DNA of 64,000 bases. Source: Haliotis asinina (Eukaryota > Mollusca > Gastropoda > Lepetellida > Haliotidae). The stretch spans positions 26,123,753-26,187,752 of the forward strand of contig NC_090290.1 in NCBI RefSeq assembly GCF_037392515.1. The letters are read 5' to 3'. Positions 5,759 through 64,000 of this stretch are shown here, piece after piece. Positions within the stretch are counted from its first letter, which is position 1. Every line of letters begins with the position of its first letter. The position numbers and the translations under genes are program-made. The notes beneath the pieces are model-generated. The model saw only the letters and a program-made list of their open reading frames with translations. It searched no databases and was not told the origin of the DNA.

Positions 5759-7961
5759 ATGACCCTCCTCCTTACAAGGATGGAGTGAGGATTAACAGCC
5801 CGCACTACCTGTGTAAACTGGTGGAGAACAAGGGGACATCACTCTACACGCTGGTCGTGTCCCAGTATGAGAAGAACAACAGTATTCACTACACACTCAG
5901 AGTCTACTCAACATGTGAGTTTTCTCTCAAGCAGTACAAGGACCCCTACAAGTCACAGTACTTCCAGAAGGTGGGTAGCAGAAGGCATCAAACTAGATGG
6001 TGGTGTTAGAAATAAGCCTGGGCAGATGTCACATCTTTTCTGTGAACACTTGCAATAACATGCTGTGAGGTGAATGGTATGATGCTGAGACTTTAGGTCA
6101 CGGATTGTGATTTCCTGGTGTTTTTAAACTGATACATCATGCCTTTTAAATGGGAAGGGGAAAAATTCACTTGTGTCCATCTATTCTATACTTTTCACTT
6201 TCAGCTGACTGGATAGATAAATTTAAAACATGAAAAGGATGTGTGGCGCCATTGTAGGAATCAGGTGTGGTAGATGAATATACTGATCAAGAATGTTCTC
6301 CATAAACTAGGTAGACTCACTGTCTAGATGTGTAGCACAATACTGCACATAGTGTCATAGGAACTAATTTATGGCAGGCATGTGTGCATCACAGAAACAT
6401 TGGTAGCATGATAGCTCATATAGTCTAATATTAATGTTTCTTCAGAGGTCTGCTGGAGTAGTCAGTTATATACTGACTTATGAGTCAAAATAGCGTAAAT
6501 GACAAACAAAATAGTTGTTATGTAAGGAAACCAGAGAAGGAGCAGATGTGTGGTTCCTTCATCAGTTGAACTGAATGTTACTGACTGCAGGTGAATGGAC
6601 AGTGGACTCAGGCCACTGCTGGTGGATGTTCCAACAACTTGGACACACACAAGAACAATCCTATCTACCAGATCCTCATAGACAACAACAGTACAGACAA
6701 CTGTATACAGATTGAGCTCCTGGGCCCCAAGTGAGTAGTGCCTCGGCTACTGGTCAGTCAGTCCCTCTTCCATGTTACTTCTAGCAAGGTGTGGCTTCAG
6801 ATGTAGCAAATAACGCTATACCCCTGTGCACTGTTACATTCAACAAGACCACTGTTCTACTTGTCCTGGTTGTTTAAGCATGAAGTACATGGTAGAAGTT
6901 CTTGTTCTTGTATTTCAGAGTGTACAGCGTTGGGTTTGAGGTGATTGCAGTCAGTCAGAGAGTGCCCAATGCACCCGGATCCTTCTCCAAGAAGACGTCA
7001 GGAGATTTCAGGTGAAATAGTGGTTTTCTGACTTATTGTCCAAAATATATATATTTATGCTGCCATCTCCTATATAGTCCCAATGATATTAAAGACATTT
7101 CACATGTAATCCAGATGGTATCAGTGTTTTCTCCCATATGGTCCAGATGTTATTAGTGTTTTCTCACATCTGGTCTAGTTGACATCAGTGTTTTCTCTCA
7201 TATAGTCCAGATGATATCAGTGTTTTATCCATATAGTCCAGGTGATATCAGTGTTTTTCCCATATAGTCCAGATGATATCAGTGTTTTTTCCCATATAGT
7301 CCAGATGTTGTTAGTGTTTTCTCACATCTAGTCTAGTTGATACCAGTGTTTTCTCTCATATAGTCCAGGTGATATCAGTGTTTTCTCCATATAGTCCAGA
7401 TGATATCAGTGTTTTCTCCATATAGTCCAGATGATATCAATGTTTTCTCCCATATAGCCAAGATGATATCAGTGTTTTCTCACATATGGTCCAGATGATA
7501 TCAGTGTTTTCTTCCAGGAAGTCACGTGAGTGTGACACCAGAAGATTAGTTGAAGATTAGGGTATTCTATCCTGTAAAAGTGTCATATACAAGATAATGT
7601 AACTTCCAATATTCGTGGGACATTTAAATAGTTAAATGGTTAAAGCATTTGCTCATAACAGTGAAGTTGTGGTTGATTGCCCACAAGGGTACATTACTGT
7701 TCCCTACAAGCGAAGTAAAACCATACCCACTCACTCCAATATCCCCACTACAACTGGTCCCTGCAAGTCACTGCTGTGTGTTTGTGTGATTTCTGATCCT
7801 GTACTCTCTGCTCCAGACCAGGTTACTGTGTGCTACAGCTGGACAACATCTCTGGGGGTGTCTACAACATTCAGCCATGTACATTCAGACCCGGGAAGCT
7901 AGGGCCATTCTTCCTTGATATCAGCAGTAATGTTGCCTTGAAGATCTCTGCACTACAGTGA
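5759..7961 (+). CDS. CAPN7: Calpain-7 (cysteine protease), last four exons
   Basis: Exons: 5759-5970, 6591-6730, 6919-7011 and 7817-7961 (TGA at 7959-7961), all with AG/GT borders and matching phases, encoding the last ~195 residues. Calpain-7 is an intracellular, papain-fold cysteine protease with N-terminal MIT domains that bind ESCRT-III proteins. The part here is the second C2-like (calpain domain III) module; the catalytic domain lies upstream of the window or was not found. Residues close to the vertebrate protein as I recall it: ADDPPPYKDGVRINSPHYL, TLVVSQYEKNNSIHYTLRVY, THKNNPIYQI, YSVGFEV, LGPFFLD, and the C-terminus LKISALQ (vertebrate IKITQLQ). The first exon starts in phase 2, so it needs an upstream exon ending near vertebrate KKVYYP; I searched 2500-5750 by eye and did not find it. 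The donor at 7012 opens a minisatellite (see 7009-7520). Confidence 0.93.
7009..7520. repeat. Minisatellite (~32-bp unit) starting on the calpain-7 5' splice site
   Basis: About 15 units like CAGATGATATCAGTGTTTTC followed by TCCCATATAGTC fill the first part of this intron. The exon end plus donor, CAGGTGAAATAGTGGTTTTC, aligns with the unit base for base apart from a few changes, and the next bases TGACTTATTGTCCA match TCCCATATAGTCCA. The true donor is therefore the oldest, most diverged unit. Some units carry a GT again (CAGGTGATATCAG near 7248). Confidence 0.85.
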
Positions 7962-8152
7962 TATCTACAATCTATAACCTCCATGGCAAGATCTTGCAAA
8001 ATCCAGGGATATGTATACTGATATATTTGGAGCATTTGTCTGACAAAGTACATGCTGTAAATCTTGAAATTTATGTAGAAATGAAAGTGACTGCACTAAT
8101 TAAGGTATGTTTTCATGTTTCAATACTGACTTCCTCCCCAGCTGTTCCTGCA

Positions 8153-8158
8153 AATAAA
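8153..8158 (+). terminator. Polyadenylation signal, calpain-7 (candidate)
   Basis: AATAAA lies about 190 bp after the calpain-7 stop codon. Another AATAAA at about 8561 could serve a longer 3' UTR. Confidence 0.45.
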
Positions 8159-8180
8159 TGAACAGAGGACAGCAAACAGT

Positions 8181-10177
8181 CAATAAGAATGTCAAATTGC
8201 TATATATAACGATTTACCTTTGAAACTCGATTTCCGTTTGTGCACGGCATTGTTGCATTTATACACAAAGATCAAGGTAACTGTTGGTATTTTGTCTAGA
8301 GCTAGAATTGACTGTACATTCATTTTCTTCTAGAACTGTAGAAGAAGTACCCAGTAATTATTTGATGAGATGCAATTATATCTAAAGCTATTATTTCAGC
8401 AGGGAATGATTAAATTAAATGTCATATTATGTCAGCTGCAGCTACTACTCTGTATATTAAATAATAACCATGTGACTGAGGTGACTGCTGATTGACAGAT
8501 ATTGTTAAGGTGTGGAACAGTGTCCCCCCTGCAGCATCATGGAAACCATTGATGTATAACAATAAACAAGTGAAAAATGCCACTTACAGCGTTGTATCTA
8601 TTCCCTATGAACTAAGGCTTTGTTTGAAGGTATCAATAGCAGTAGTGTAATCACTTAAATCATGTTGAACTTATCTTCAATTCAGGCATAATTTCAGCAA
8701 GATTAGTGTAAACAGTATGGAATAAAATATGGAACATAGTAAACAACTATTTATGCTGGGTTTATGGAGAAGCAGTTTTATTAAGTACTGATACACTGAA
8801 ATCAATCATTCAAACACTGAGATGTACTAAATGGAGATTTTTGTGATATGTTTTACAGGGCTCATTTGGTTTTATTGCATTAAGATTTGATGAAGTACAT
8901 CATAGGATAACCTCGTGGATTATGTTTCTTTCTAGAATTGTGCTACAGTTGAGGACTTTAATTTAATATTGATATTAAACCTCCTGATATTCAAGATTTA
9001 CAGTATTTGATCTGAGTTTTGTTAACTACATGCAGTTTATGGACACCATCCCTTCAGAACAAATCATGTTGATAAACAACATGTTCATGTGATGTGATAT
9101 CAGAACTGGTCAAGTATTGGTCATTTACATGAAATGGAGTGGTATAACTTATACTGCTAATGGAGTGGTTGTTAAACAGTTTTCACCTTTGAACTGGAAA
9201 GTTTTATGTGCAAACACATTCACTCTAGTGTTTGGTTGTGACAGTGGTGTCACAGATATAGTGCCTTCAAGTGCTTTCATCCTCATGTTTAACTCTGTAA
9301 CGTTTACATTATCCATGGTGGTTCCATAACTGATCTGAACTGTCCAATGTTTGCTGTTCTGGACAGTAGATGGTTACATGTAGCCAGGTTAGTCTATTGT
9401 GAGCATCTCCACACCTCCTTCCCTCAAGGTGACTTGAAAAGTCATATGATATCTTAATGTTATGTTATGATATGTTAATGTTCCATATGTCTGTTCTATG
9501 TCTGTTATTTATTTTCCATGACATCTAATTACAAAACATGTCTAGCATGATCAACTGTATGTCAGTTTTATCTGCATTTGGTCAAATGAGAGTGCCATAT
9601 TTGCTACTTGTGGCAGGAAGACCTATTGAACAATAATACAATATAGCAATAAGTTAGTGAACATATAACATCAAAAGCGTTTGGTTATTTTCATTGAAAT
9701 GTCATACTTTGTTAAAGTTTTTATTAAGGTTATAAGTAAAGTTTAGCTTATTATGCACAAGTTATACCTATACTTGATTTGAAGTTGAAGATTTTCATCA
9801 GCAAACAAGGGTGACATTCAGTATAGTGGAGCTTTTTACTCAGTTACACATGTAAAACTGTGCCCAATTGCTCTAATAAACTCAGAAGCGAAATCTGTAT
9901 TCTAGGATGTTGTGTGGATCAAAGGAGCTCAGAGTAGCTTATTCTACAAATAAATAAACTTATGAGTTACATGTTAAAGGGAAGACCTTATGACCCTGTT
10001 TTAGATCACTTCCGCCTTTAATCTGATGTGTCCTGTTCCTGTCTGTCAGGATGGCACATCCTAATCGGCTAGTGATCAGTGCAATAGTTTCTTTAACAGA
10101 GGTGTACCCAAGAACTGAACATTATTCCCTGGAATGATACCGATGAAGAACTGATATTCAGTAACATCAAGTTTACA
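8181..10177. other. Gene-free, AT-rich stretch
   Basis: No coding sequence, RNA gene or repeat array that I recognise. The open frames here are under 80 codons, with no family resemblance. Confidence 0.5.
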
Positions 10178-10332
10178 AGATCAGGTGGTCTGGCTTGCTG
10201 ACTTGGTTGACTCATGTCATTGTATCCCATTTGTGTAGATTAATGCTCATGGTGTTGATCACTGGATTGTCCAGTCCAAATTCCATTATTTACAGAATGC
10301 CACCATATAGCTGGAATATTGCCGAGTGCAGG
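10178..10332 (-). repeat. SINE family A copy
   Basis: On the minus strand it matches the family from the head (GGAATATTGC, CACCATATAGC) through GTGATCAACACCATGAGCAT to CCAAGTCAGCAAGCCAGACC. The last part of the family consensus is absent. Confidence 0.8.
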
Positions 10333-10955
10333 GGATAATGCCAGCCCATGCTGTGTGGTTATCTAACACATCCAAAAACCATGGTGTCACAGCAGCCACA
10401 AAGGAAGGCATTCTGGATTTGTCAGGCCACGGGGATCAGGTGTCATTCATAAGTTTCATATGCTCAGCTTTACACACTCAGCAATATACTGAAATTACCG
10501 GTAGTCACAGCTTTTTATGTTGCTCCATTCTGCAATGTTCACTCCTCAGTTCAAGCAGTTGATTCAAATCATGTGTTGGTTGTGGTAACATGTTGGACAT
10601 GTAAGCACTCAGCTTTATGGCTTACAATAGCTGCAATCTGCTAACAGTAATGCTGTAAACACATCTTGCAATTTTTACTTTTCAAAACATTTTCAGCTAA
10701 ACAAAACCACTGTCATATAATGTGGTTAAAGATGTTGTAGAACCCAATTCATTCATTGTAATTATGGTCCAACATCCTGCATACTTTATGTTATGTACAT
10801 ACATGTGTATATTGTTTCGTTCTGTGATATTAGGACTCGCACACTTTATGGCATCATATCATGAAAATGTGACGGCATAGTTGACCTGAACTTCCTCCAG
10901 AAAACAATGGCATAATACTATCTTTTGTTAGCCTCTTTATGATTAGTGCTAATTC

Positions 10956-11565
10956 CTTTCTTTGATGAGTCTGTTGTTAGCCTCATCCTGGCCCATGGTG
11001 ACACCAATGCTTGATGAGTCTGTTGTCAGCCTCATCCTGGTCCATGGTGACACCATTTGCTTGATGAGTCTGTTGTCAACCTCATCTTGGTCCATGGTGA
11101 GACCATTGCTTGGTGTGTCTGTTGTCAGCCTCATCCTGGTCCATGGTGAGGCCATTGCTTGGTGTGTCTGTTGTCAGCCTCATCCTGGTCCATGGTGACA
11201 CCATTTGCTTGATGAGTCTGTTGTCAGCCTCATCCTGGTCCATGGTGAGGCCATTGCTTGGTGTGTCTGTTGTCAGCCTCATCCTGGTCCATGGTGAGAC
11301 CATTGCTTGGTGTGTCTGTTGTCAGCCTCATCCTGGTCCATGGTGAGACCATTGCTTGATGAGTCTGTTGTCAGCCTCATCCTGGTCCATGGTGACACCA
11401 TTTGCTTGATGAGTCTGTTGTCAGCCTCATCCTGGTCCATGGTGAGGCCATTGCTTGGTGTGTCTGTTGTCAGCCTCATCCTGGTCCATGGTGAGACCAT
11501 TGCTTGGTGTGTCTGTTGTCAACCTCATCCTGGTCCATGGTGACACCATTGCTTTATATGTCTGC
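10956..11565. repeat. Minisatellite, 49-bp unit x 12, with partial higher-order repeat
   Basis: GTTGTCAGCCTCATCCTGGT recurs at 49-bp steps (11121, 11170, 11220, 11269 and so on; one step is 50). Unit types alternate: GACACCATTTGCTTGATGAG, GAGGCCATTGCTTGGTGTGT and GAGACCATTGCTTGGTGTGT. Type order repeats in blocks of about three units. No gene is recognised around it. Open frames on both strands are artefacts of the array. Confidence 0.95.
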
Positions 11566-14270: not shown

Positions 14271-14284
14271 CTCTCTGTTAAGAC

Positions 14285-19510: not shown

Positions 19511-20345
19511 TACGAGGGGCGTTTATTAGAGATTTCCCCTGATCCACTTCTGGTATTCACATGTGGCTGAAACTTCATGAGAGTAATGACACATATGTCT
19601 GTGGGGTTCGTGTGGTCATTTTCAGCAGTGAAGTATGAAAGTTATTTGTTTGACAGGCGTTTTATCGAAGTAAGGTGTGACAATGGAGCCAGCTGACTAC
19701 CGCGCAGTGATCACGTTTTTGTACTTGAAAGGTAGCACACCAACAGAGACCTTTGATGACATGAAAGCAATCTACGGGGAGGATGCCCAGTCGTATCGCC
19801 TAGTTACACACTGGCATCGCCAGTTTAAATGTGGTCTGAAATCTGTGGAATTGATCCCATTTGTCAAGATCAGTGTAGGGTCTGTGGAAAAAAAATCATT
19901 CATGACGATTTGCACACGCATACACACCTTTTCTGAAAGAGGAACGAGTCAGTTGCTTAAAGTCTCCTTTGTACATGTGCCAAGAAAATCAGGGAAACTG
20001 TTTCGACAGGCCTGTCTCACATGATGAAACATGGATCCATCACAATGATCCTGAGACCAAAGTTCAGTCGATGCAATGGAAGCACGTGGAGTCAACACCC
20101 CAAAGAAAGCAGCCGCCTACAGGCAAGGTCAGGCTCAAGCTGTTTTGGAACGTGCACGGAGTTGGGATGACGGATTTCCTGACAAAGGGTACCACAATTA
20201 CAGGGACATAGTATGTGTCACTGTTGCAGAAACTGCGAGTAGCTATCAAGCTTAAGAGACATGCCATTCTGACCAAAGTTCTCTGTCTCCTGCAAGACAA
20301 CGCTCCCGTACACAACTCACATTGCCCTGAGGGAATCACGGTCCT
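19511..20345 (+). mobile_element. Mariner-type DNA transposon fossil (SETMAR/GVQW-like transposase)
   Basis: The 5' end starts at a TA with a mariner-like terminal repeat, TACGAGGGGCGTTTATTAGA. After ~170 bp an ATG at 19683 opens MEPADYRAVITFLYLKGSTP...GEDAQSYRLVTHWHRQFK, the usual helix-turn-helix start. The frame then breaks. Later pieces give HDETWIHHNDPETK (first catalytic Asp), QWKHVESTP, GKVRLKLFWNVHG, LLQKLRVAIK and LLQDNAPVHNS (second Asp). The third acidic residue, expected in a YSPDLAPSD-type motif, is missing because the element ends in a tandem array at ~20345. The linker after the DNA-binding domain is also lost. No 3' terminal repeat was seen. It is dead, with several frameshifts. 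Confidence 0.85.
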
Positions 20346-23559: not shown

Positions 23560-26500
23560 TTAGATTTTGAAGGCCAGTATACATTGTCCAAGGTACAGCT
23601 TGCTACAGTCAGTCCCACCGTGTTCTGCAGAAACCGGGACGGCCTCCAGCCCCAAGACGTGTACACAATACACTCGTGTGTAGAATGCTACTGGTACCTG
23701 TTTCTGGAAGCTGGCAAACTGAACGTGTCATGTGGGGGACTGTGCCTCAAGTCTTCCTCCAGCTCAATCGTAATGCCCCACCCAGACGACCACCACGCCA
23801 TGGACAGCGTGTGTGCGACGTTGTCGACGACTAACTGCACATGGTGGACTTCTTGCTGCAATGGCGCCACAGCGTGTTGCCGACAGCAACAGACACTCCG
23901 CCAGGTGCACGATGGCAGCTACTGCCCTATGACGTGGGACGGTTGGTCATGTGTTACCGAGACACCTGCTGGACATACAGCGGACATACAGTGTCCTAGC
24001 TTCATACCCTCGTCGGGCCCAGAAGGTGAGCTGAGTGTGACAGCACTGCATGGCGTCGCTGTATAGCACTCTACTTGTTGTATGTATTTATTACTAATAT
24101 ATATATATAACGCTCATGTTCACGCAACTTAGTATATGCTCCAGGCGCTGATACCAGATGAACGTTCACAGATGCCGGGTGGTGGGTTAGCATGGTGGTT
24201 AAAGTGCCGCTCGTCTAGCTGAAGACCCGGGTTCGATTCCCCTCAGTGTTACTACTTAGTGTCCATACAACAACTTCTACACATCTCTGGTAACTGGTTG
24301 TGTTCAGGGGGACTGTAGAGACTGAGACAACCAATCTGCTTTACTTAAAATATATATCATCAGTACAGTATACATGGGGTTGTTGTAGGGTGAAATAAAC
24401 TATTCTAAGTAAATTATATAACCCGTATGTGATATTTGTTTAAAGCTCGAGCACACAGGAAGTGCACATCTAACGGCACCTGGTGGCGGAAGCCAGCGAG
24501 CAACATGGAGTGGACAGATTACTCTACCTGCATAGAGCTTGACCTCAAGGTGAGTATAGGAACGTCTCGGCCTGTCCTGTATAGAACTCGATCTCAAGGT
24601 GAGTATAGGGATCTCTCGACCTGGCCTGTATAGAGCTTGCCCTCAAGGTGAGTATAGGGAAGTCTCGATCTGTCCTGTATATAACCCTACTTCAAAGTGA
24701 GTATGGAGACGTCTCGACCTGTCCTGTATAGAACTCGATCTAAAGGTGAGTATAGGGATCTCTCGACCTGGCCTGTATAGAGCTTGCCCTCAAGGTGAGT
24801 ATAGGGAAGTCTCGATCTGTCCTGTATATAACCCTACTTCAAAGTGAGTATGGAGACGTCTCGACCTGTCCTGTATAGAACTCGATCTAAAGGTGAGTAT
24901 AGGGATCTCTCGACCTGTCCTGTATAGAGCTTGCCCTCAATGTGAGTATAGGGAAGTCTCGATCTGTCCTGTATATAACCCTACTTCAAAGTGAGTATGG
25001 AGACGTCTCGACCTGTCCTGTATAGAGCTTAACCTCATGGTGAGTATATGGACATCTTGACCTATGTAGAAATGGAACATCAGAGCGCAAAACCTAAAGG
25101 TAAGTGAAGAGACCTGTGGCGTGAACTTAATTGTCTGTGCATGTACCAGTTCTGTTGTAGGGGGAGTCCGCCGCCCAGATCGTGGCCATCGTGTGTGACG
25201 CACTCAGCATCCTGTTTCTGATCCCCGCTATCGTCATATTCCAGGGATTCAGGTGAGCTGTAGCCATATTCCTGGTATTTAGGTGAGCTGTAGTCCTGTT
25301 CCTGGGAGTTAGGTGAGCTGTAGCCATATTCCAGGGATTTAGGTGAGCTGTAGTCATGTTCCTGGGAGTTAGGTGAGCTGTAGCCATCTTCCAGGGATTT
25401 AGGTGAGCTGTAGTCATGTTCAGCTGTAGTCATATTCCATGGATTCAGGTGAGCTGTAGCCATATTCCAGGGATTTAGGTGAGCTGTAGTCATGTTCCAG
25501 GGATTCAGGTGAGCTGTGGCCATATTCCAGGGATTTAGGTGAGCTGTAGTCATGTTCAGCTGTAGTCATATTCCATGGATTCAGGTGAGCTGTAGCCATA
25601 TTCCAGGGATTTAGGTGAGCTGTAGTCATGTTCCAGGGATTCAGGTGAGCTGTGGCCATATTCCTGGTATTTAGGTGAGCTGTAGTCATGTTCCTGGGAG
25701 TTAGGTGAGCTGTAGCCATATTCCAGGGATTTAGGTGAGCTGTAGTCATGTTCAGCTGTAGTCATATTCCATGGATTCAGGTGAGCTGTAGCCATATTCC
25801 AGGGATTTAGGTGAGCTGTAGTCATGTCTCAGGGATTTAGGTGAGCTGTAGTCATGTTCCAGAGATTTAGGTGAACTGTGACCATCTTCCAGGGATTTAG
25901 GTGAACTGTGACCATCTTCCAGGGATTTAGGTGAGCTATGACCATATTCCAGGGATTCAGGTGAGCTGTAATCATGTTCCTGGGATTCAGGTAAGCTGTC
26001 GCCATTCACCCTATTCTGGATCATACAGAATGTGCAATGTGATTATGGCACACACGCCCTTACGTAGGGTAACTAGATATTATGTCAGATCAGGTCGGTT
26101 CAACTGTAGCTGCTGTATGCCTGGAACCGGAGGGGTGGAGGCATCCATGGCAATACCCGACTATGTGTCATTGCAGACAACTGCGCTGCCACCGACACGT
26201 CAAGCTGCACACTAACCTGTTTGTGGCCCTACTGCTGACGTGCATCACATCGATGACCATGGAGAAGCTGGTGTACTACGACGGCTTATTCACAGAACAG
26301 AGCAACACGTTCCAGCAGACTCATCAGGTGAGCTGAAGAGCATGAGCAGCTCGTCCCATGTAGACGGTGAACTATCCTAGCTCATGTATAGCTCAACCTA
26401 GAACAAATTGCAATAATAGCTAACTCTTCTGTTTTGTATTCCCCATACCATATATTTAAACATAGCAAAAGTATAGGAATGTATATTGAGAGAAAGTTTA

Positions 26501-29500
26501 TTTTCCCCACCAAAACTTACGTGCATGTTTGCCCGTCCCATGAGCGATTGAATGAGTACACTACACAGAAGTATGTCACGTAGTAGGGCATTTAGCACAT
26601 GAATTCAGTGTTTAGTGCTTAATCAGTTAGATGATTTGAGATTAAAAACATCAAATTTAACATAAATACAAGTAATAAGAATATAATTCTGTTTACAACT
26701 AACTAGTTAATTAATATATAAAACAATAGGTTTTTTTGTATCCGTCACCGAAGGATTTCAAACTATAATTTCATTTTATGTATATTTCAAACACCAGACA
26801 GTGTGAAAATAAAAATAAGTATTTACCGTGTTTACTCTGTTACACGAACTTTAACAACTGTAATACGATTTTCAGAACAAAGTGGTACACAATATATATA
26901 TCTTGACAAGACAGGGTCCAATGATTGAATGGAATTATCTGTTTTTAAACAAACTTCAAATGATTCTAGGAAACCTTTTGCATTACTGGCTCTAAACTCC
27001 ATAAATAAACAGTGTTGTTAAAGGGACAATCCGAATGGAACAGCGTCGTTTTGTTAGGGGAAGTAACTCGTGTTTTGTGTGAAATATATTTCTACCAGTT
27101 CTTCACAGTATTTATAATAAGACGTACATATTGTTAGAACAGCCTCATGTACGACATCTAATTGTTCATTAAGATTGTTCTGTCTTATGCGGTAGCAAAG
27201 GAGGTTACTTTACAAGCTGAAATGATGCTTTGATAGAGCCTACACTTTGATAACTCTTCATGGGCTGATGGCCATCCGTTTTTTCGTATGAGATGTGCGC
27301 GATTTGGCATTACCAAAAACAACTTTTTCGAACAAAATTGTTTATCGTACTTTCCTATACTTTCGACACGTTAAAAATACACAACTTCCTTACATGTTCC
27401 AGCAGAAACGGTTTTTATTGCAATTTGTCCTCCCTCTTTTGAATGTATTACTATATATAGTTAACTGGGACCCGAACTGATAGCCATACGATTCAAACAC
27501 GCACAAGGGAGACAACTCTGCATAGCAAATTAGGTGTTCGTGCATGGCTAACCTCCCAGAGAGAGAGAGAGAGAGAGAGAGAATGTTCGGTGAATGTATG
27601 ACAGTGTACTGCGTGTGTGTCTGACAGTTCGGCGAATGTATAATGTCTTGTGTTTTTAACAGTATCTTTACTTTGGCCAGGTCAGCTGCCGGGTTCTGAA
27701 CGTCCTTGACCTCCTGTTCCACATGTTCCCCGTGTTTTGGATGCTATGTGAAAGCTTTTATCTCACATGGCTCATGATTCGGTCGTTCCATCAACTGACA
27801 TCCATCATCGGATTCTATGCAGTTGGCTGGGGTAGATATTAATGTACACAACAAATCGGTCTACATATGTGTTTTTGTTTGTTTGTTGTTTACCGTAGCA
27901 TTCAGCAATATTCCATCTCTATGGCGGCGGTCTGTACATAATCGAGTCTGGACCAGACAGTCAAGTGATCAACAGTATGAGCATCCATCTATGGATCTGG
28001 GTACGGTGACATGTGTCAACCAAGTCAGCGTGTCTGACCACCCGATCCTGTTAGTCGCTTCTTATGACAAGCATTGGTTGCTGAAGACCAGTTCTAACCC
28101 GAGTCATCACGGGTAGACTAATCAGTGTAACATTATAACCCTATGAAATGAATTTCCAGTATTTATTACAATGTACAGTAAACAACGACTATATGTTGCA
28201 GGGTTGCCAATAATAATCATCATAATCTACGTCATCTTGAAAACACAGATTGAAGCGGATAGGTAAGACGACGTCAGTAGCAGAAGTCCCTCAGGATGCC
28301 CGCACTTACACTCTAGAGTAACGCAATAGCAGGACGCGCTTATAGGGTGGACTGCATGACGCATTCAGCAACTGTAGGAAGTCTTGTAATACACACTGCA
28401 TCATGCAGTGGACGGATCATGTTACGTATTTGTGAAAAAGGCAGCTCATTCACAGACAACACAGTGTTAGACTGCACACTCAGTATCACACTGCATGCCG
28501 TGTCATAGGACACAGCATACCACACAGAAGAGTGAGTGAGTTTAGTTTTAGCAATATTCCAGCAATATCACAGCGGGAGACAACGGAAATGGGCTTCACA
28601 AATGTGGGGTATCGAACCCGGGTCTTAGGCACGACGACCCAGCTCTTTAACCACTAGGCTACCCCCACCGTCGCACACAGAGAAAGATACAGTGATCAAA
28701 GCAAGTATCGTGTGTAGGGCTTTGTGTATTGACTGTACTGAAACTTGTACTTCATACATTTTTAGCTGAGTGCTACTGTAACAATAAATGTATCACGTTT
28801 TCTCATCTAACTATTTTAAGGGAGGTCCGCTGTTTTCGGTGAAGTACTCTGTTTTAGGTGAGGTCCCCTGTTTAAGGTGAGTTCTCTTATTTTAGGTCAA
28901 GTCACCCTTTTCAGGCGAGGTCCCTATTTTAGGTGAGATCCCCTGTTTAAGGTGAGGTGCCCTGTTGTAGGTGAGGTCCGCTGTTTTAGGTGAAGTCTTC
29001 TGTTTCAGTTCCTGTTGGCTCACCAGCTCTCATGGCCTGGACTGGGTGATCTACGGACCATCGTTAGTGTGTATCGCTGTAAGTTTGGTGAAACACAAAC
29101 CACACTGTTCACACATCCACTTCTTTTTGATGAATGGTAACGAGAATATGCGTTCGCAAAATGTTCTTTTCATATCGTGGTCTCATATCATGGAATCCTG
29201 GAACGGACATAACCACCTTTGTAAATCCAAGAAACAATGCATCTTTTAACCAAAACACCACAATGCCACATTTTACGAAAGTGAGTGAGTGAGTTACGTT
29301 TTACGCCGCACTCAGTAATAGTCCAGCTGTATGGCGGGAGTATGTAGATATTCGAGCCTGGATCAACAGCATGAGCGTCCATCTACGCGACTGGAATACG
29401 ATAACTTGTGTCAACCAAGTTGACCACCCGATTCCCGCTAGTCGCCTCTTACGAGAAGCATGGGTTACCGAAGATCAGTTCTCATCCGGTCTTCACGGCA

Positions 29501-52602: not shown

Positions 52603-55600
52603 TTGATGATGAGGACAGGGAGACAGGAACGCCCGACCAGATGTTACTTCCGGTTCCTCTGCTTTGTGCTTGGGTTCTGGTTCTTGGTGTTTTTGCAGTA
52701 TGTCATAGTGGACGAGTGGTACCCACACACGGGGGCTGACAGTCACAGACATTTCCGTGGCGCTGTCACGATTAATCCACACGGTATGCCATCTGACCGA
52801 CACGCAAAGCGGAAACATGGCCGTGACAAGCATAAGTTGCACAGGGACGATTTCCACGATGGTCAAGGGCTAAAGGGAGGAAAGTCGGACAGTGACCATC
52901 TTTTTAAAAGATTTGGCAGGGAAGGTTTCCGTAATGACAACCTCCCAAATGTGAACAAATCAGACAGTGGCGCATATATGAATAAACTGGTCGGAGAAGG
53001 TCTCCCTAAGGCAAACCGCCCTGTGAAGGTACTCGAGAAAGATCGCAAGAGTGATGCCGTCAGGAATATTGTGGAGTATATCCAGAAAGAGATGGCAGCG
53101 CCAGATTCACCTGACGGAGTCTCAAACAAAACGCTAGAACTGGTGCGAGAAGGTGTCAAAGACAAGAACAGGACGTTACCATCCCACGCTGACAAGGCGC
53201 GGGAAGAAGCTGACGTAAAGAGGATACTGAATACCATGGCACCGCGGGCTCATATGAAAGCCCCAGGTGAGTCGCTTCCTCTTTCTTTGTTTAAGAATCT
53301 CACTTACAAAACCCCAGATAAGAATTCTTCTGTCTTTGTTTGAAGCGTTTCACATGAAAGCCCCAGGTGTCTGTTCTTCTGTCTTTGTTCGAAGCGTTTC
53401 ACATGAAAACCTCAGGTGTCTGTTCTTCTGTCTTTGTTCGAAGCGTTTCACATGAAAACCTCAGATGTCTGTTCTTCTGTCTTTGTTCGAAGCGTTTCAC
53501 ATGAAAACCTCAGGTGTCTGTTCTTCTGTCTTTGTTCGAAGCGTTTCACATGAAACCCTCAGGTGTCTGTTCTTCTGTCTCTGTTCGAAGCGTTTCACAT
53601 GAAAACCTCAGGTGTCTGTTCTTCTGTCTTTGTTCGAAGCATTTCACATGAAAACCTCAGGTGTCTGTTCTTCTGTCTTTGTTCGAAGCGTTTCACATGA
53701 AAACCTCAGGTGTCTGTTCTTCTGTCTTTGTTCGAAGCGTTTCACATGAAAACCTCAGGTGTCTGTTCTTCTGTCTTTGTTCGAAGCGTTTCACATGAAA
53801 ACCTCAGGTGTCTGTTCTTCTGTCTTTGTTCGAAGCGTTTCACATGAAAACCTCAGGTGTCTGTTCTTCTGTCTTTGTTCGAAGCGTTTCACATGAAAAC
53901 CTCAGGTGTCTGTTCTTCTGTCTTTGTGTAAAGTGTTCTGCTAAGGGCAAAGTAGATGTTAGAGTACTGGTGGTGAATTAGTACCTTAATCGTAAACACA
54001 GAGGTGTAATATAAGTGGTATTATGAATTGCATTATACAGGAGAGTTTGGCAAGGCAGTGCAAATCGACCTGGCGACTCTGTCAAAAGAGGAAAAATTCA
54101 AGATGGAGTTGGGATTCAACAGAACTGGCTTCAACTTGTACGTCAGCGATCTGATCTCTCTACGTCGTCGCGTCCCAGACATGAGGTCGGCAGGGTGAGT
54201 ACGTACCTAGCCTCAGAATATCTTCTATGACGGCTATCTAGCCCCTATATATCTGCAGTGACGGGTACCTAACCCCTATACATCTGCGGGGACGGTGTAT
54301 CTCGCCCCTATATATATGCCGTGATGGTGTATCTAACTCCTGTATATCTGCCGTGACGGTGTATCTAGACCCCATATATCTGCCGTGACGGTGTATCTAG
54401 ACCCCATATATCTGCGGCGACGGTGTATCTAGACCCCATATATCTGCCGTGACGGTGTATCTAGCCCGTATATATATATGCTGCTACGGTATATGTAGCC
54501 ACTATATGTCTCCTCTGACGATGTATCTAGACCTTATATATCTGCGGCGACGGTGTATCTAGACCCCATATATCTGCGGCGACGGTGTATCTAGCCCGTA
54601 TATATATATGCTGCTACGGTATATGTAGCCACTATATGTCTCCTCTGACGATGTATCTAGACCTTATATATCTGCGGCGACGGTGTATCTAGACCCCATA
54701 TATCTGCCGTGACGGTGTATCTAGCCCGTATATATATATGCTGCTACGGTATATGTAGCCACTATATGTCTCCTCTGACGGTGTATCTAGACCTTATATA
54801 TCTGCCGTGACGGTGTATCTAGCCCGTATATATATATGCTGCTACGGTATATGTAGCCACTATATGTCTCCTCTGACGATGTATCTAGACCTTATATATC
54901 TGCGGCGACGGTGTATCTAGACCCCATATATCTGCGGCGACGGTGTATCTAGCCCGTATATATATATGCTGCTACGGTATATGTAGCCACTATATGTCTC
55001 CTCTGACGGTGTATCTAGACCCCATATATCTGCGGCGACGGTGTATCTAGACCCCATATATCTGCGGCGACGGTGTATCTAGACCCCATATATCTGCCGT
55101 GACGGTGTATCTAGACCCCATATATCTGCCGTGACGGTGTATCTAGCCCGTATATATATATGCTGCTACGGTATATGTAGCCACTATATGTCTCCTCTGA
55201 CGATGTATCTAGACCCCATATATCTGCCGTGACGGTGTATCTAGACCCCATATATCTGCGGCGACGGTGTATCTAGCCCGTATATATATATGCTGCTACG
55301 GTATATGTAGCCACTATATGTCTCCTCTGACGATGTATCTAGACCTTATATATCTGCCGCGACGGTGTATCTAGACCCCATATATCTGCCGTGACGGTGT
55401 ATCTAGCCCGTATATATATATGCTGCTACGGTATATGTAGCCACTATATGTCTCCTCTGACGGTGTATCTAGACCTTATATATCTGCCGTGACGGTGTAT
55501 CTAGCCCGTATATATATATGCTGCTACGGTATATGTAGCCACTATATGTCTCCTCTGACGGTGTATCTAGACCCCATATATCTGCCGTGACGGTGTATCT

Positions 55601-58600
55601 AGACCCCATATATCTGCGGCGACGGTGTATCTAGCCCGTATATATATATGCTGCTACGGTGTATGTAGCCACTATATGTCTCCTCTGACGGTGTATCTAG
55701 ACCCCATATATCTGCCGTGACGGTGTATCTAGACCCCATATATCTGCGGCGACGGTGTATCTAGCCCGTATATATATATGCTGCTACGGTATATGTAGCC
55801 ACTATATGTCTCCTCTGACGATGTATCTAGACCTTATATATCTGCGGCGACGGTGTATCTAGACCTTATATATCTGCCGTGACGGTGTATCTAGACCCCA
55901 TATATCTGCCGTGACGATGTATCTAGCCCGTATATATATATGCTGCTACGGTATATGTAGCCACTATATGTCTCCTCTGACGATGTATCTAGACCCCATA
56001 TATCTGCGGCGACGGTGTATCTAGCCCGTATATATATATGCTGCTACGGTATATGTAGCCACTATATGTCTCCTCTGACGGTGTATCTAGACCCCATATA
56101 TCTGCCGTGACGGTGTATCTAGACCCCATATATCTGCGGCGACGATGTATCTAGCCCGTATATATATATGCTGCTACGGTATATGTAGCCACTATATGTC
56201 TCCTCTGACGATGTATCTAGACCTTATATATCTGCGGCGACGGTGTATCTAGACCCCATATATCTGCCGTGACGGTGTATCTAGCCCGTATATATATATG
56301 CTGCTACGGTATATGTAGCCACTATATGTCTCCTCTGACGGTGTATCTAGACCTTATATATCTGCCGTGACGGTGTATCTAGCCCGTATATATATATGCT
56401 GCTACGGTATATGTAGCCACTATATGTCTCCTCTGACGATGTATCTAGACCTTATATATCTGCGGCGACGGTGTATCTAGACCTTATATATCTGCCGTGA
56501 TGGTGTATCTAGACCCCATATATCTGCGGCGACGGTGTATCTAGCCCGTATATATATACTGCTACGGTATATGTAGCCACTATATGTCTCCTCTGACGAT
56601 GTATCTAGACCTTATATATCTGCCGTGACGGTGTATCTAGACCCCATATATCTGCCGTGACGGTGTATCTAGCCCGTATATATATATGCTGCTACGGTAT
56701 ATGTAGCCACTATATGTCTCCTCTGACGGTGTATCTAGACCCCATATATCTGCCGTGACGGTGTATCTAGACCCCATATATCTGCGGCGACGATGTATCT
56801 AGCCCGTATATATATATGCTGCTACGGTATATGTAGCCACTATATGTCTCCTCTGACGATGTATCTAGACCTTATATATCTGCGGCGACGGTGTATCTAG
56901 ACCCCATATATCTGCCGTGACGGTGTATCTAGACCCCATATATCTGCCGTGACAGTGTATCTAGCCCGTATATATATATGCTGCTACGGTATATGTAGCC
57001 ACTATATGTCTCCTCTGACGATGTATCTAGACCTTATATATCTGCCGTGACGGTGTATCTAGACCCCATATATCTGCCGTGACGGTGTATCTAGACCCCA
57101 TATATCTGCCGTGACGGTGTATCTAGCCCGTATATATATATGCTGCTACGGTATATGTAGCCACTATATGTCTCCTCTGACGATGTATCTAGACCTTATA
57201 TATCTGCCGTGACGGTGTATCTAGACCCCATATATCTGCCGTGATGGTGTATCTAGCCCGTATATATATATGCTGCTACGGTATATGTAGCCACTATATG
57301 TCTCCTCTGACGATGTATCTAGACCTTATATATCTGCCGTGACGGTGTATCTAGACCCCATATATCTGCGGCGACGGTGTATCTAGCCCGTATATATATA
57401 TGCTGCTACGGTATATGTAGCCACTATATGTCTCCTCTGACGATGTATCTAGACCTTATATATCTGCCGTGACGGTGTATCTAGACCCCATATATCTGCG
57501 GCGACGGTGTATCTAGCCCGTATATATATATGCTGCTACGGTATATGTAGCCACTATATGTCTCCTCTGACGATGTATCTAGACCTTATATATCTGCGGC
57601 GACGGTGTATCTAGACCTTATATATCTGCGGCGACGGTGTATCTAGACCCCATATATCTGCGGCGACGGTGTATCTAGCCCGTATATATATATGCTGCTA
57701 CGGTATATGTAGCCACTATATGTCTCCTCTGACGATGTATCTAGACCTTGTATATCTGCTGTGACCGTGTATCCAGCCATTATATATGCACGGCGATGGT
57801 GTATCTCGCCCATATATCTCCATGCTGCTGTGTATCTTGTCCCTATATATCTCCTGTGACTATGTATCGTGCCCATGTCTCAGCTGCGAAGGTGTTTCTA
57901 GCCTCGATGTATTTGCCCTCCATATGGCTGGAATATTGCTGAGTGCGGCGTAAAACTAAACTTATTCTATGCATTTGCGTCGACGGTGTATCTAGCCCCT
58001 ATATATCTGCTGTGACTGTATCTAGCCCTTATATGCCTGCTGCGACGGTGTATCTAGCCCCTATTTTTCCTGCTTTGATGGTGTATCTAGCCCCGATGTC
58101 TACCACCTGTAGTTGAACAAGTTAAATGTATAGCTTGATAGTCCCAGGCCAAATGCTAGGATCTCTCAGCAGCAGTAAACGTATTAGCCAGTAATTAGTA
58201 TGACAGAGTTTGGGCATTATGACGCGAGAAACAGTCTGTTGTGTCTGAAGTTAACAAGGTGATGAATTATGTGTGTGAGATGTCACAGTAATGGATTGAT
58301 ACTTTCTGGTTATCAGCGGTTTATACCCAGTGTCTTCCCCCTCAGGTGCCGGGGGCTGGTGTACCCAGACGACCTGCCTGCCACCAGCATCATCATCTGC
58401 TTCCACAACGAGGCTTGGTCCACGCTCATCAGGACGGTGTTCAGCGTCCTCGACAACACACCACAACATCTTCTACACGAAGTCATCCTCGTAGACGATG
58501 CGTCTGACGAACGTGAGAGCTTCACATATGCCATACTTCACGAACCATTTGTCGATCCTAACAGTTACTAGCAACTCTTCACTCAGTTTCGATGCTGCTG

Positions 58601-59241
58601 TATCCGACCACACATGGTGCTCTCATGGAATCAGCATCCCTTCACTGATCAATCAATACATTCCAATTTTACTCGTGAAGAGAGTAATTAGAATTGATCT
58701 TCAGCAACAAATGCTCGTTGAAAGAATAAGCTACTGGTATCATGACTTGCTGACTTGCCGTTTACACATCATCGTATCCCAATATTGCGGAGATTGATGC
58801 TCATGCCCATTGAATTGTCTGATCCAAACTCGATTATTAACATTAACTCGACTGTCGCCATATAGTTGGGATATTGCTGAGTGGGACTTCAAACAAACAC
58901 ACAAAGAACCCAAAAACAAACAAACAACAACAAACCCCAAAACAAAACACCAAACAACAACCAGTTAACTAGCATCTATGTTTTTAATTGTGAAGGTGAC
59001 TAGTGGTTCAACAACTAGCTATCAAGCTTTCTTCAACCTTTGTTTCGAAACACATGCAGTTTGTTTTCCACCCTAGCGTCACTTGGTACGTCACTGGAGG
59101 AGTACCTCCGCCCACTGCCCAAGGTGAAGCTAGTGAGGGCCTCCTCCAGAGTGGGCTTGATTGGAGCCCGACTACTGGGCGTGGCGTCATCTACTGCTCC
59201 CGTCCTCACCTTCCTGGACTCACACGTGGAGTGTATGAAAG
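52603..59241 (+). CDS. Polypeptide N-acetylgalactosaminyltransferase, 5' four exons (continues past the window)
   Basis: Exons: 52603-53266, 54041-54194, 58346-58512 and 59077-59241, all GT-AG with matching phases (~383 codons). The family starts mucin-type O-glycosylation in the Golgi, moving GalNAc from UDP-GalNAc to Ser/Thr. The start [10 protein letters not shown] is followed by a signal anchor (residues ~13-35, [20 protein letters not shown]) and a long basic stem to ~residue 220 (a type II membrane protein). The catalytic part follows: [70 protein letters not shown] and [12 protein letters not shown], with the metal-binding DSH (DxH) motif. The rest of the catalytic domain and the ricin-type lectin domain lie downstream. 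The subtype is unresolved. Three of its four visible introns begin with satellite arrays of 0.7, 3.9 and over 4.7 kb. An alternative start at the second Met is possible. Confidence 0.93.
53250..53935. repeat. 49-bp minisatellite that repeats a 5' splice site (transferase intron 1)
   Basis: The exon end CATATGAAAGCCCCAG plus GTGAGT is unit 1. Unit 2 (ACCCCAGATAAG, 53311) and unit 3 (CACATGAAAGCCCCAGGTGT, 53351) are intermediate. From 53400 on, units are almost identical (CACATGAAAACCTCAGGTGT, CTGTTCTTCTGTCTTTGTTC), with a 49-bp period, about 14 units. Divergence is greatest at the real splice site and falls into the array. Confidence 0.95.
54195..58100. repeat. Large 32-bp satellite with higher-order repeats (transferase intron 2)
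   Basis: It starts at the donor (GGGTGAGTACGTACCTAGCC resembles the unit start CGGTGTATCTAGCC). Basic monomers are ~32 bp, for example CTGCCGTGACGGTGTATCTA + GACCCCATATAT. Four monomer types recur in order, marked by CTAGCCCGTATATATATATG, CTGCTACGGTATATGTAGCC, CTCCTCTGACGATGTATCTA and GACCCCATATAT. The marker CTAGCCCGTA occurs about 25 times, at 54461, 54591, 54721, 54819, 54949, 55143, 55273 and so on; the steps are 98, 130 or 194 bp, so whole monomers are gained or lost. From 57760 the units decay, and a SINE piece is inserted at 57920. Confidence 0.95.
57920..57963 (-). repeat. SINE family A head fragment in the satellite
   Basis: Minus strand: TTTAGTTTTACGCCGCACTC, then AGCAATATTCCAGCC. 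Only the first ~45 bp are present, flanked by satellite units. Confidence 0.85.
58741..58895 (-). repeat. SINE family A copy in transferase intron 3
   Basis: Minus strand: CTCAGCAATATCCCAACTAT, ATCGAGTTTGGATCAGACAA, GGCATGAGCATCAATCTCCG. It is diverged. Confidence 0.75.
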
Positions 59242-62200
59242 GTAAGGACATGCATGTGGCAGTGTGTACGGGTGTAAGGACATTTAGCGGTGTGTATTGG
59301 GGTACGGGATGTGCCGGTGTGTACGAAAGGCAAGGACGTGTTAGCGGTGGGTTGGGGGTAAGGACATTTGGCGTTGTGTGTGAGGGGTAAGGACATTTGG
59401 CGGTGTGTATGGGTGTGAGGGAAGGTGGCAGTGTGTATGGGGATAAGGGGCTGTGGCGGTGTGTATGGGTGTGAGGGAAGGTGGTGGTGTGTATGAGTGT
59501 AAGGGAAGGTGGAAGTGTGTGTGGGGATAAGGGACTGTGACGGTGTGTATTGGTGTCAGGGAAGGTGGCTGTGTGTATGGGTGTGAGGCATGTGACGGAG
59601 TGTATGGATGTAATTGAAGGTGTCGATGTTTATGGGCATGAGGGAAGGTGGCAGTGTGTATGGGGATAAGGGACTGTGACGGTGTGTTTTGGTGTAAGGG
59701 AAGGTGTCGCTATGTATGGGTGTGAGGGAAGGTTGCAGTGTGTATGGATGTGAGGCATATGACGGTGTTTATGGGTGTAAGGGAATTGTATCGGTTTGTA
59801 TGAGGGAAGGTGGCGGTGTGTATGGGTGTAAGTGAAGGTGGCAGTGTGTATGGGGATAAGGGGCTGTTTCAGTGTGTATGTGTGTAAGCAAAGGTGATGG
59901 TGTGTATGGATGTAAGGGAAGGTTTCAGTGTGTATGGGTGTGAGGAAAGGTGGCGGTGTGTATGGGTGTAAGCAAAGGTGATGGTGTGTATGGATGTAAG
60001 GGAAGGTGGCGGTGTGTATGAGTTTGAGGGAAGGTGGCGGTGTGTGGATGTAAGGGAGGGTTTCAATGTGTATGGGTGTGAGGGAAGGTGGCGGTGTGTA
60101 TGGGTGTAAGCAAAGGTGATGGTGTGTATGGATGTAAGGGAAGGTGGCGGTGTGTATGAGTTTGAGGGAAGGTGGCGGTGTGTGGATGTAAGGGAGGGTT
60201 TCAATGTGTATGGGTGTGAGGGTAGGTGGCAGTGTGTGTGGGGATAAGGTGCTTTGGCGGTGTGTATGTGTGTAAGGGAAGTCGACGGTTTGTATGGGTG
60301 TAGGGGAAGGTGTCGATATGTATGGGTGTGATTGAAGGTGGTGGTGTGTATGTGTGAAGCATGTGGCAGTGTGTAGGGGTGTGAGAGAAGGTGGCAGTGT
60401 GTGTGGGGATGAGGTTCTGTGGCGGTGTGTATGAGTGTCAGGCATGTGACGGTGTGTATGAGTGTAAGTAAAGGTGTCGGTATTTATGGGTGTGAGCGAA
60501 TGTGGCTGTGTGTATGGGTGTAAGGAAAGTTAGCAATGTGTATTGGTGTGAGGGAAGGTGGTGGTGTGTATGGATGTAAGGGAAGGTGACTGTGAACATG
60601 GGGATAAGGGACTGTGAAGGTGTGTATGAATGTAAGTGGAGGTGGCAGTGTGTATGGGGATAAGGGGCTCTGGCGGTGTGTATGTGTGTAAGGGAAGTCG
60701 ACTGTATGGGTGTAAGGGAAGGTGTCGATATGTATGGGTGTGAGGGAAGGTGGTTGTGTGTATGGGTGTGAAGCATGTGGTGGTTTGTATTGGTGTAAGC
60801 GAAGGTGGCGGTATATAAGTGTGTAAGGAAAGGTTTCTGTGTGTATGGGTGTAAGGGAAGGTTATGGTGTGTATGGATGTAAGGGAAAGTGTCAGTATGT
60901 ATTGGTTTGAGGGAAGGTGGCAGTGTGTATGGATGTGAGGGAAGGTTTCAGTGTGTATGTGTGTAAGCAAAGGTGATGGTGTGTATGGATGTAGGGGAAG
61001 GTGGCGGTGTGTATGAGTGTAAGAGAAGGTGGCAGTGTGTATGGGGATAAGGGGCTGTTGGAGTGTGTATGTGTGTAAGGGAAGGTGATGGTGTGTTTGG
61101 ATGTAAGGGAAGGTGTCGGTATGTATGGGTGTGAGGGAAGGTGGTAGTGTGTATGAGTGTAAGGGAAGGTGGAAGTGTGTGTGGGGATAAGGGACTGTGA
61201 CGGTGTGTATTGGTGTCAGGGAAGGTGGCTGTGTGTATGGGTGTGAGGCATGTGACGGAGTGTATGGATGTAATTGAAGGTGTCGATGTTTATGGGCATG
61301 AGGGAAGGTGGCAGTGTGTATGGGGATAAGGGACTGTGACGGTGTGTATTGGTGTAAGGGAAGGTGTCGCTATGTATGGGTGTGAGGGAAGGTTGCAGTG
61401 TGTATGGATGTGAGGCATATGACGGTGTTTATGGGTGTAAGGGAATTGTATCGGTTTGTATGAGGGAAGGTGGCGGTGTGTATGGGTGTAAGTGAAGGTG
61501 GCAGTGTGTATGGGGATAAGGGGCTGTTTCAGTGTGTATGTGTGTAAGCAAAGGTGATGGTGTGTATGGATGTAAGGGAAGGTTTCAGTGTGTATGGGTG
61601 TGAGGAAAGGTGGCGGTGTGTATGGGTGTAAGCAAAGGTGATGGTGTGTATGGATGTAAGGGAAGGTGGCGGTGTGTATGAGTTTGAGGGAAGGTGGCGG
61701 TGTGTGGATGTAAGGGAGGGTTTCAATGTGTATGGGTGTGAGGGAAGGTGGCGGTGTGTATGGGTGTAAGCAAAGGTGATGGTGTGTATGGATGTAAGGG
61801 AAGGTGGCGGTGTGTATGAGTTTGAGGGAAGGTGGCGGTGTGTGGATGTAAGGGAGGGTTTCAATGTGTATGGGTGTGAGGGTAGGTGGCAGTGTGTGTG
61901 GGGATAAGGTGCTTTGGCGGTGTGTATGTGTGTAAGGGAAGTCGACGGTTTGTATGGGTGTAGGGGAAGGTGTCGATATGTATGGGTGTGATTGAAGGTG
62001 GTGGTGTGTATGTGTGAAGCATGTGGCAGTGTGTAGGGGTGTGAGAGAAGGTGGCAGTGTGTGTGGGGATGAGGTTCTGTGGCGGTGTGTATGAGTGTCA
62101 GGCATGTGACGGTGTGTATGAGTGTAAGTAAAGGTGTCGGTATTTATGGGTGTGAGCGAATGTGGCTGTGTGTATGGGTGTAAGGAAAGTTAGCAATGTG

Positions 62201-64000
62201 TATTGGTGTGAGGGAAGGTGGTGGTGTGTATGGATGTAAGGGAAGGTGACTGTGAACATGGGGATAAGGGACTGTGAAGGTGTGTATGAATGTAAGTGGA
62301 GGTGGCAGTGTGTATGGGGATAAGGGGCTCTGGCGGTGTGTATGTGTGTAAGGGAAGTCGACTGTTTGTATGGGTGTAAGGGAAGGTGTCGATATGTATG
62401 GGTGTGAGGGAAGGTGGTTGTGTGTATGGGTGTGAAGCATGTGGTGGTTTGTATTGGTGTAAGCGAAGGTGGCGGTATATAAGTGTGTAAGGGAAGGTTT
62501 CTGTGTGTATGGGTGTAAGGGAAGGTGGTGGTGTGTATGGGTGTGAGACATGTGATGGTGTGGATTTGTGTAAGGGAAGGTGGTGGTGTGTATTGGTTTG
62601 AGGGAAGGTGGCAGTATGTGTGGGGATAAGGGGCTGTGGTGATGTGTAGGAGTGTGAGGCAAGTGGCGGTGTGTATGGGTGTAAGGGAAGGTGTCGGTAT
62701 GTATGGGTGTGAAGGAAGGTAGCTGTGTGTATAGGTGTAAGGAAAGGTGTCGGTGTGTATGGGGATAAGGGGCTGTGGCGGTGTGTATGGGTGTAATTGA
62801 AGGTGATGGTGTGTATTGATGTAAGGGAAGGTGTCGGTGTGTATGAGTGTGAGAGATGGTGGCTGTGTGTATGGGTGTGAAGCATGTGGCGGTTTGTATT
62901 GGTGTAAGGGAAGGTGGCGGAATGTAAGTGTGTGAAGGAAGGTTTCTGTGTGTATGGGTGTAAGGGAAGGTTGCAGTGTGTATGGGGATACGGGGCTGTG
63001 GCTGTATGTATGGGTGTGAGGGAAGGTGGTGGTATATATGGGTGTACGGGAAGGTGGCAGTGTGCATGGAGATATGGGACTGTGGCGGTGTGTATGGGTG
63101 TGAGGGAAGGTGGCTGTGTGTATGGGTGTGAGGCATGTGACGGTGTGTATGGATGTCATTGAAGGTGTCGATATTTATGTTCATGAGGGAAGGTGGTAGT
63201 GTGTATGAGTGTAAGAGATGGTGGCAGTGTGTATAGGGATCAGGAACTGTGACGGTGTGTATGGGTTGAAGGGAAGGTGTCGGTATGTATGGGTGTGAAA
63301 GAAGGTGGCAGTGTGTGTGGGGTGAAGGAACTGTGGCGGTGTGTATGAGTGTCAGGCATGTGACGGTGTGTATGGGTGTAAGGAAAGGTGTCGGTATTTA
63401 TGGGTGTGAGGGAAGGTTTCTGTGTATTTGGGTGTAAGGAAAGGTGGTAATGTGTATTGGTGTGAGGGAAAGTGGTGGTGTGTATGGATGTAAGGGAAGG
63501 TGGCGGTGTGTATGGGGATAAGGGACTGTGGCGGTGTGTATGGGTGTGAGGGAAGGTGGTGGTGTGTATGGATGTAAGGGAAGATGGCGGTGTGCATGGG
63601 TGTGAGGGAAGGTGGTGGTGTGTATGGAAATAAGGCGTTGTGGCGGTGTGTATGTGTGTAAGGGAAGGTGGTGGTGTGTATGTGTGTAAGGAAAGGTTGC
63701 GGTGTGTATGGATGTAAGGGAAGGTGTCGGTATGTATGGGTATGAGGGAAGGTGGCTGTGTGTATGGGTGTGAGCTAAGTTGACGGTGTTTATGGGTGTC
63801 AGTTAAGGTGTCAATATGTATGTGTGTGAGGGAAGGTGGCAGTGTGTATGGGGATAAGGGACTGTGGCGGTGCGTATGTGTATGAGGGAAGGTGGCGGTG
63901 TGTATGGATGTAAGGGAAGTTGTCGGTATGTATGGGTGTGAGGGAAGGTTTCTGCGTGTATGGGGGTGAGGGAAGGTGGCAGTGTGCATGGGTGTAAGGG
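59228..64000. repeat. GT-rich satellite starting on a 5' splice site (transferase intron 4, runs off the window)
   Basis: The exon end GGAGTGTATGAAAG plus donor GTAAGGACATGCATGTGGCA is the first unit. GTGTGTACGGGTGTAAGGAC (59263) and GTGTGTACGAAAGGCAAGGA (59319) follow, and then hundreds of ~28-bp units like GTGTGTATGGGTGTAAGGGA + AGGTGGCG, with a GGGGATAAGGGACTGTGGCG variant every few units. The plus strand is almost free of C. The long His/Thr/Pro open frames on the minus strand come from the repeat. Confidence 0.95.
59462..62528. repeat. 1.66-kb tandem duplication inside the GT-rich satellite
   Basis: 59462-60864 and 61122-62528 match almost base for base at an offset of 1660 bp (1664 after a 4-base difference near 60700). 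For instance GTCAGGCATGTGACGGTGTG is at 60437 and 62097. Differences in the shared ~1.4 kb are very few, so the event is recent or the copies are being homogenised. Confidence 0.9.

Follow-up and report, generated by a model that had tools for sequence, protein, structure and literature searches.

In a stretch of 64,000 nucleotides of the abalone Haliotis asinina (the window, positions 26,123,753-26,187,752 of contig C11, in a 1.143-Gb assembly of 159 contigs of up to 106 Mb), five 5′ splice sites (donors) clearly open a tandem array made from their own exon-intron edge. They are the donors at window positions 24550, 25253, 30145, 53267, and 59242. We consider it probable that such arrays started as a short duplication straddling the donor, tolerated since the upstream donor stayed intact, and that unequal exchange then enlarged them.

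An earlier reading of the window from its letters alone (the sequence-only reading) had assigned arrays of this kind to three genes, a calpain-7, a class B G protein-coupled receptor, and an N-acetylgalactosamine (GalNAc) transferase, and homology searches confirm all three. The C-terminal part of calpain-7 is present (match to PDB 2qfe, E 4e-37), the class B receptor is nearest to the calcitonin receptor (PF00002 1.2e-39; E 8.7e-47), and the transferase is GALNT9-like (sequence match, E 4.8e-46). SPAG6 is confirmed via a single exon (E 8.8e-65). The window also holds remains of a mariner-type transposase (19674-20021, PF17906 1.1e-9) and of a reverse transcriptase (38689-39180, PF00078 8.8e-21). 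Homology and phase fixed the positions of 22 donors on the + strand and of 19 acceptors; a further donor, in CISD3, was read by eye. The sequence-only reading had counted 26 donors. Alignments to protein homologues span the exon joins at 7012, 24550, 25253, 30145, and 54195 (5 of the 7 that matter here), and the joins at 53267 and 59242 are at query ends, outside those alignments.

The seven donors that had been named as opening arrays all have correct coordinates, and a tandem array follows each of them. To judge descent from the donor, the tandem consensus was aligned over each edge, and the copy at the edge (copy 0) was extended against its best downstream copy. By this test the donor-derived unit is clear in five cases but weak at 7012 (score 7) and 54195 (score 6.5), where the extension scores near noise and the arrays adjoin the donors. 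The seven arrays, with starts from Tandem Repeats Finder (TRF) where these differ, are:

24527..25063, + strand: array at donor 24550, calcitonin-receptor-like gene; 49-bp unit, 11 units including the edge unit, with the last 23 exon bases in the unit.
25235..26005, + strand: array at donor 25253, calcitonin-receptor-like gene; 30-bp unit, 24 copies including the edge unit, 18-26 exon bases.
30142..30343, + strand: array at donor 30145, calcitonin-receptor-like gene; 45-bp unit, ~4 copies, 0-3 exon bases.
53253..53927, + strand: array at donor 53267, GALNT9-like gene; 49-bp unit, ~13 intronic copies, 14-17 exon bases.
59232..64000, + strand: array at donor 59242, GALNT9-like gene; 28-bp unit, 10-14 exon bases, extending beyond the window end.
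7009..7516, + strand: array next to donor 7012, calpain-7; 32-bp unit, TRF start 7103, weak link between unit and donor.
54195..58094, + strand: array next to donor 54195, GALNT9-like gene; ~32-bp unit, TRF start 54235, two TRF rows merged, weak link between unit and donor.

Thus the claim that these introns start with copies of their own donor edge holds in five of the seven cases. The further claim that at least five units include 10-18 exon bases was too generous: at least 10 exon bases lie within the unit in four arrays (24550, 25253, 53267, and 59242). At donor 30145, despite the 0-3 exon bases, the intron head matches a downstream copy over 60 bases. AGGTGAGC is kept in 20 of the 23 intronic copies at 25253, and 11 of 13 copies at 53267 carry the edge CAG/GTGTCT (exon/intron), a weak donor. 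Units in the window's donor arrays measure 28-49 bp, and the six complete donor arrays stop 97-654 bases short of the acceptor, the gap being filled by other sequence. The exon share of the unit ranges from ~0-3 of 45 bases (30145) to ~30 of 34 (L064, a locus outside the window, read by eye), and because it varies so widely, it looks like the outcome of random breakpoints rather than of cutting at the donor.

Donors are not the only border affected, since one array ends on an acceptor (29009), and one further candidate lies on the opposite strand:

28814..29008, + strand: array of 19-bp units (TTTTAGGTGAGGTCCCCTG type) in the calcitonin-receptor-like gene, ending on acceptor 29009; a 3′-edge case.
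4004..4242, - strand: candidate donor array without a gene model; 76-bp unit x 3.1, 100% match, edge ~9 bases before AG/GTGAGT on the - strand.

This candidate is one of six window arrays (10-883, 1226, 4004, 10962, 20351, and 37011) that fall outside the modelled gene parts. Five window arrays of differing sequence (1226, 10962, 24527, 37011, and 53325) have the same repeat period, 49 or 50 bp. In SPAG6 and CISD3, for which nine array-free donors had been counted, we find no array at any of the six SPAG6 donors and one CISD3 donor placed in the window.

What has happened to the copies after they were made? The expectation from the sequence-only reading was that copy 1 is kept while later units drift and homogenise. 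Homogenisation is borne out at 24550, where 9 of the 10 intronic units have a partner at 0.98-1.00 similarity (the last unit, 0.82), and the exon-edge unit reaches at most 0.88; the interior units form near-identical higher-order repeats from which the edge unit is left out. At 53267 our homogenisation script detected two units, too few for such a comparison. Drift is a mixed matter. At 24550, 25253, and 30145 the donor copies are still strong, and so are those seen in two genes described below (all 3 in NDUFS2 and the single one in FUCA1). In line with drift, on the other hand, none of the 13 copies at 53267 or the 11 at 59242 scores close to copy 0, and at 7012 and 54195 no downstream copy is similar enough to be scored as a donor. 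The GT dinucleotide is retained in 10/10 scored intronic copies at 24550, 23/23 at 25253, 11/13 at 53267, and 2/11 at 59242. That later donor copies either persist or decay suggests that the copied donor has no needed role.

The same anatomy recurs outside the window, which lies on C11, on contigs C1 and C2. Two cases show the direction of copying. In NDUFS2 the units of the donor array carry TAIEAPK, which is found in mammalian chains (PF00346 1.7e-8; PDB E 4e-15), and in the alpha-L-fucosidase gene FUCA1 the unit carries the LAWLYND end (PF01120 1.2e-8; PDB E 2.8e-15). Both units span the exon-intron border, and because they hold exon ends conserved in mammals, the copying went from exon to intron. 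In addition, two paralogous IBR exons ~18 kb apart on C2 (L066 at 51.829 Mb and L069 at 51.811 Mb) have the same donor and differing array units, as if the arrays had been re-seeded or independently remade.

These and other loci come from searches for three donor motifs in a row. For CAGGTRAGT x3 (gaps 12-42) we counted 19 loci among the matches listed (the first 100 of 840), all on C1 and C2 up to 71.6 Mb, and fetched the 5′ flanks of all of them. Read by eye, an exon-like stretch ends at the first donor copy in nine (L053, L055, L057, L058, L060, L063, L064, L066, and L069). The edge is visible but no coding exon was recognised in five (L051, L059, L061, L062, and L070), and the flank falls short of the array edge in the other five (L054, L056, L065, L067, and L068). 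Family searches gave a match over the cut-off for L053 and L066; L069 was judged by its near-identical exon to L066 in place of a search of its own. The match for L063 is below the cut-off (DUF4487, 0.0058), the family search of the exon-like stretches at L055, L058, L060, and L064 found no match, and L057 was searched with a padded query only. The looser AGGTRAG x3 gave 13 distinct loci among the matches listed, of which 3 simple repeats were excluded and 10 fetched; one of the ten has a coding exon by reading (NDUFS2), the other nine flanks being read without a family search. In an array with an acceptor-like motif (L022) no exon was recognised by eye.

The explanation that we consider probable accounts for this anatomy as follows. 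A short segment would be duplicated in tandem; its upstream break would fall within the last few to ~30 bases of the exon, its downstream break among the first bases of the intron. Because the upstream copy would retain the intact exon and donor, splicing at that first donor would preserve the protein. The surplus copies would sit in the intron, where slippage or unequal exchange could multiply them toward the acceptor and homogenise the interior, and coding selection may hold the exon-edge unit. Part of the bias for donors over acceptors may stem from tolerance, since splicing would tend to choose an additional acceptor lying upstream and so alter the message; a further mutational bias at donors is possible. 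Several observations weigh against this explanation. Tolerance alone leaves the preference for donors over the intron interior unexplained, and the acceptor-sited array at 29009 exists. The edge unit at 25253 is 0.97 like its nearest copy, which leaves its exclusion from homogenising unclear. At myosin loci two intronic arrays begin well inside the intron, ~150 and ~470 bases from the donor. Finally, that transcripts use the first donor is something that we infer from the DNA.

Are donors, then, places where such duplications arise more often? The sequence-only reading proposed a process acting at donors, and in its strong form transcription or splicing there (an R-loop, stalled U1, or replication slippage) would make tandem duplications far commoner than elsewhere. 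Within the window, the test is to slide each of seven complete intronic arrays within its own intron, the array at 28814 being included and the one at 59242, which leaves the window, excluded. Six of the seven start at -31..+10 of a donor (P = 9.5e-5; exact sum, 1.2e-4); but with the TRF starts for 7012 and 54195 four of seven are at the donor and the support drops to P = 0.019, and a wider zone of -31..+100 with those same starts holds six of seven with P = 0.05. All these P values come from a window picked for looking odd. A comparison of self-similarity at donors with that at random window points was dropped as a test. Values of at least 24 occur at 5 of 22 donors and 1 of 19 acceptors, but also at random points, 22% of those drawn from the whole window and 32% of those drawn from its genes; the measure does not discriminate because arrays occupy so much of the window. 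Of the 14 window arrays, 5 have the motif AGGTRAG in their consensus (3 on the + strand of these genes, 2 on the other strand). None of the 26 arrays found in a random sample of 200 kb has it, against ~0.3 expected in window and sample alike; the sample is unannotated and covers more than introns. In a random 10-kb stretch (L008, C3:11602643-11612642), a 44-bp satellite of ~209 copies fills most of the sequence (707-10000).

Across the whole assembly, the motif counts point in both directions. CAGGTRAGT x3 has 840 matches vs. 97 for the mirrored pattern, and by our own row counts its 19 loci lie within 177.6 Mb, where the mirror has 30 over the full 1143 Mb (P 8.9e-6); extrapolated from the 177.6 Mb, loci of the CAG donor would be about four times as many. 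However, when both are counted on the same 177.6 Mb, the 19:12 ratio of donor to mirror loci equals that of the single motifs (25,340 to 16,934; P 1.0), which weighs against a donor process. Nor is there an excess for AAG donors: AAGGTRAGT x3 has 321 matches vs. 417 for the mirror, with 21 loci in ~450 Mb vs. 17 in ~416 Mb. For the acceptor pattern TTTYYCAGG x3 there are 218 vs. 64 mirror matches, and its 18 loci in ~584 Mb are rarer per Mb than CAG donor loci (P 2.5e-4), the degeneracy of the two patterns being different. AGGTRAG x3 has 13374 matches vs. 4279. Match counts are inflated by a few large arrays, and the strict CAGGTRAGT triple misses many: going by the copy tables, 0 of the 7 window arrays would pass it. 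Another argument for the donor edge is that, where the edge of a motif-selected array is visible, we read an exon-like stretch there in 9 of 14 cases (P 0.017), or in 8 of 13 when paralogues count once (P 0.034). Seeding on the motif itself would predict at most ~33%, from the surplus of single donor motifs over mirror motifs (25340 vs. 16934). Six of the nine exon calls are, however, without a family match over the cut-off.

The myosin genes provide a control outside the window. None of 20 myosin donors has an array, and none of 20 acceptors, in a set where 13 of the 20 come from one exon of tandem paralogues and where the best-scoring site close to each match end was taken as donor or acceptor. 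One intronic array there is a counter-example to seeding at donors:

C4:34960238-34963498, 567-1164: array in a myosin intron (L033); 30-bp unit x 20, with its start ~150 bases into the intron and its end ~35 bases short of an acceptor-like site.

In the same family, 13 copies of one myosin heavy chain head exon lie on both strands over 310 kb (C5:73569140-73879366), with more matches at 72.2-72.9 Mb. A process acting at donors is partly supported: the placement within introns speaks in favor, and the mixed motif counts, the varying exon share of the unit, and the myosin result speak against. A mutational hot spot at donors is possible, not established, and we regard the strong form as doubtful. 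Somewhat unlikely, too, is an ongoing process in this lineage that carries copies of donor edges into the introns of hundreds to thousands of genes and re-seeds the same donor more than once, as the IBR paralogues might indicate, with 5′ splice sites as genuine hot spots.

Other explanations fit the anatomy poorly. Selection for many donors, securing splicing or tuning isoforms, would agree with the strong copies at 24550, 25253, 30145, NDUFS2, and FUCA1, but it is hard to reconcile with the decayed copies at 53267 and 59242 or the lack of scorable ones at 7012 and 54195. Moreover, at 7012, 25253, 30145, and 54195 a transcript read on into the intron would meet a stop after a single base; in the other three the stop comes at 81 (24550), 74 (53267), and 146 (59242) bases, and there the next copy or copies precede it. 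We find this form of selection quite improbable. The arrays could instead date from the origin of the introns themselves, if these arose when an exonic AGGT was duplicated in tandem (the Rogers model), with the donor coming from the first copy and the acceptor from the last. Units do carry AG/GT, and the authors of the amphioxus globin study propose a related model (PMC3087553), but the distance between the six complete donor arrays and their acceptors argues that the acceptor is not from the last copy, and at 24550 and 25253, the two introns compared by eye, the first exon bases past the acceptor are unlike the intron head; we hold this origin to be very improbable. An assembly artefact has a precedent in one amphioxus globin array that appeared mis-assembled (PMC3087553). 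Here, no array is a plain repetition of one sequence, as its copies diverge among themselves and from the exon end, and the same anatomy is found on three contigs, which makes an artefact extremely improbable. A mobile element as the source of the arrays is also disfavored; every unit resembles its own gene's edge.

If such arrays are common in this genome, then the birth of arrays, the choice among similar donors, and duplication at transcribed splice sites all become testable with many examples in one genome, and gene predictors may misplace exon ends within them. If they are merely tolerated duplications, they offer a useful yet ordinary instance of neutral minisatellite growth.

Several known systems bear comparison. 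For molluscs, we found no report of donor-straddling arrays in the openly licensed PubMed Central (PMC) literature, searched at listing level. In Haliotis discus hannai, a 27-bp minisatellite in intron 3 of the TSSK1-like gene varies in repeat number among individuals; it is intronic like the arrays here, but the account available to us in PMC6905558 does not locate it at a donor. A variable number tandem repeat in intron 18 of human ABCA7 opens at the exon 18 donor with a 25-bp unit, the donor GT forming the unit's first two bases (PMC5954066). Unlike the arrays here, that unit starts at GT and so is without exon bases, and it is a single disease-linked locus of ~12-427 units. The closest relatives are the amphioxus “mirages”, tandem repeats over exon-intron borders in Adh3, globins, TnC, and PGBD5 (PMC3087553 and PMC3902484), and the comparability that the sequence-only reading suggested is borne out by the first of these. 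In both systems repeats span the border, units measure ~10-160 bp, and AG/GT is present in many but not all copies; in both, the interior is homogenised and the cluster boundaries are excluded, which is clear here at 24550. Mirages affect 5′ and 3′ borders alike, as do the donor arrays and the acceptor case at 29009. They are further characterised by leaving normal splicing undisturbed and by repeat numbers that vary between alleles or in the soma; the nearest observations here, from one assembly, are the protein alignments through five of the seven joins and the differing units of the paralogues L066 and L069. The differences are that here the arrays are chiefly at donors, with one acceptor, that several genes are affected within one 64-kb window and more on two other contigs, and that splicing of the amphioxus globins was verified by reverse-transcription polymerase chain reaction, whereas the arrays here are known from DNA sequence. 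By the defining features that can be tested at this level, the clear arrays are mirages. They would thus be a known kind of array in a new genome, familiar from lancelets and from one human gene, and seen here in more genes.

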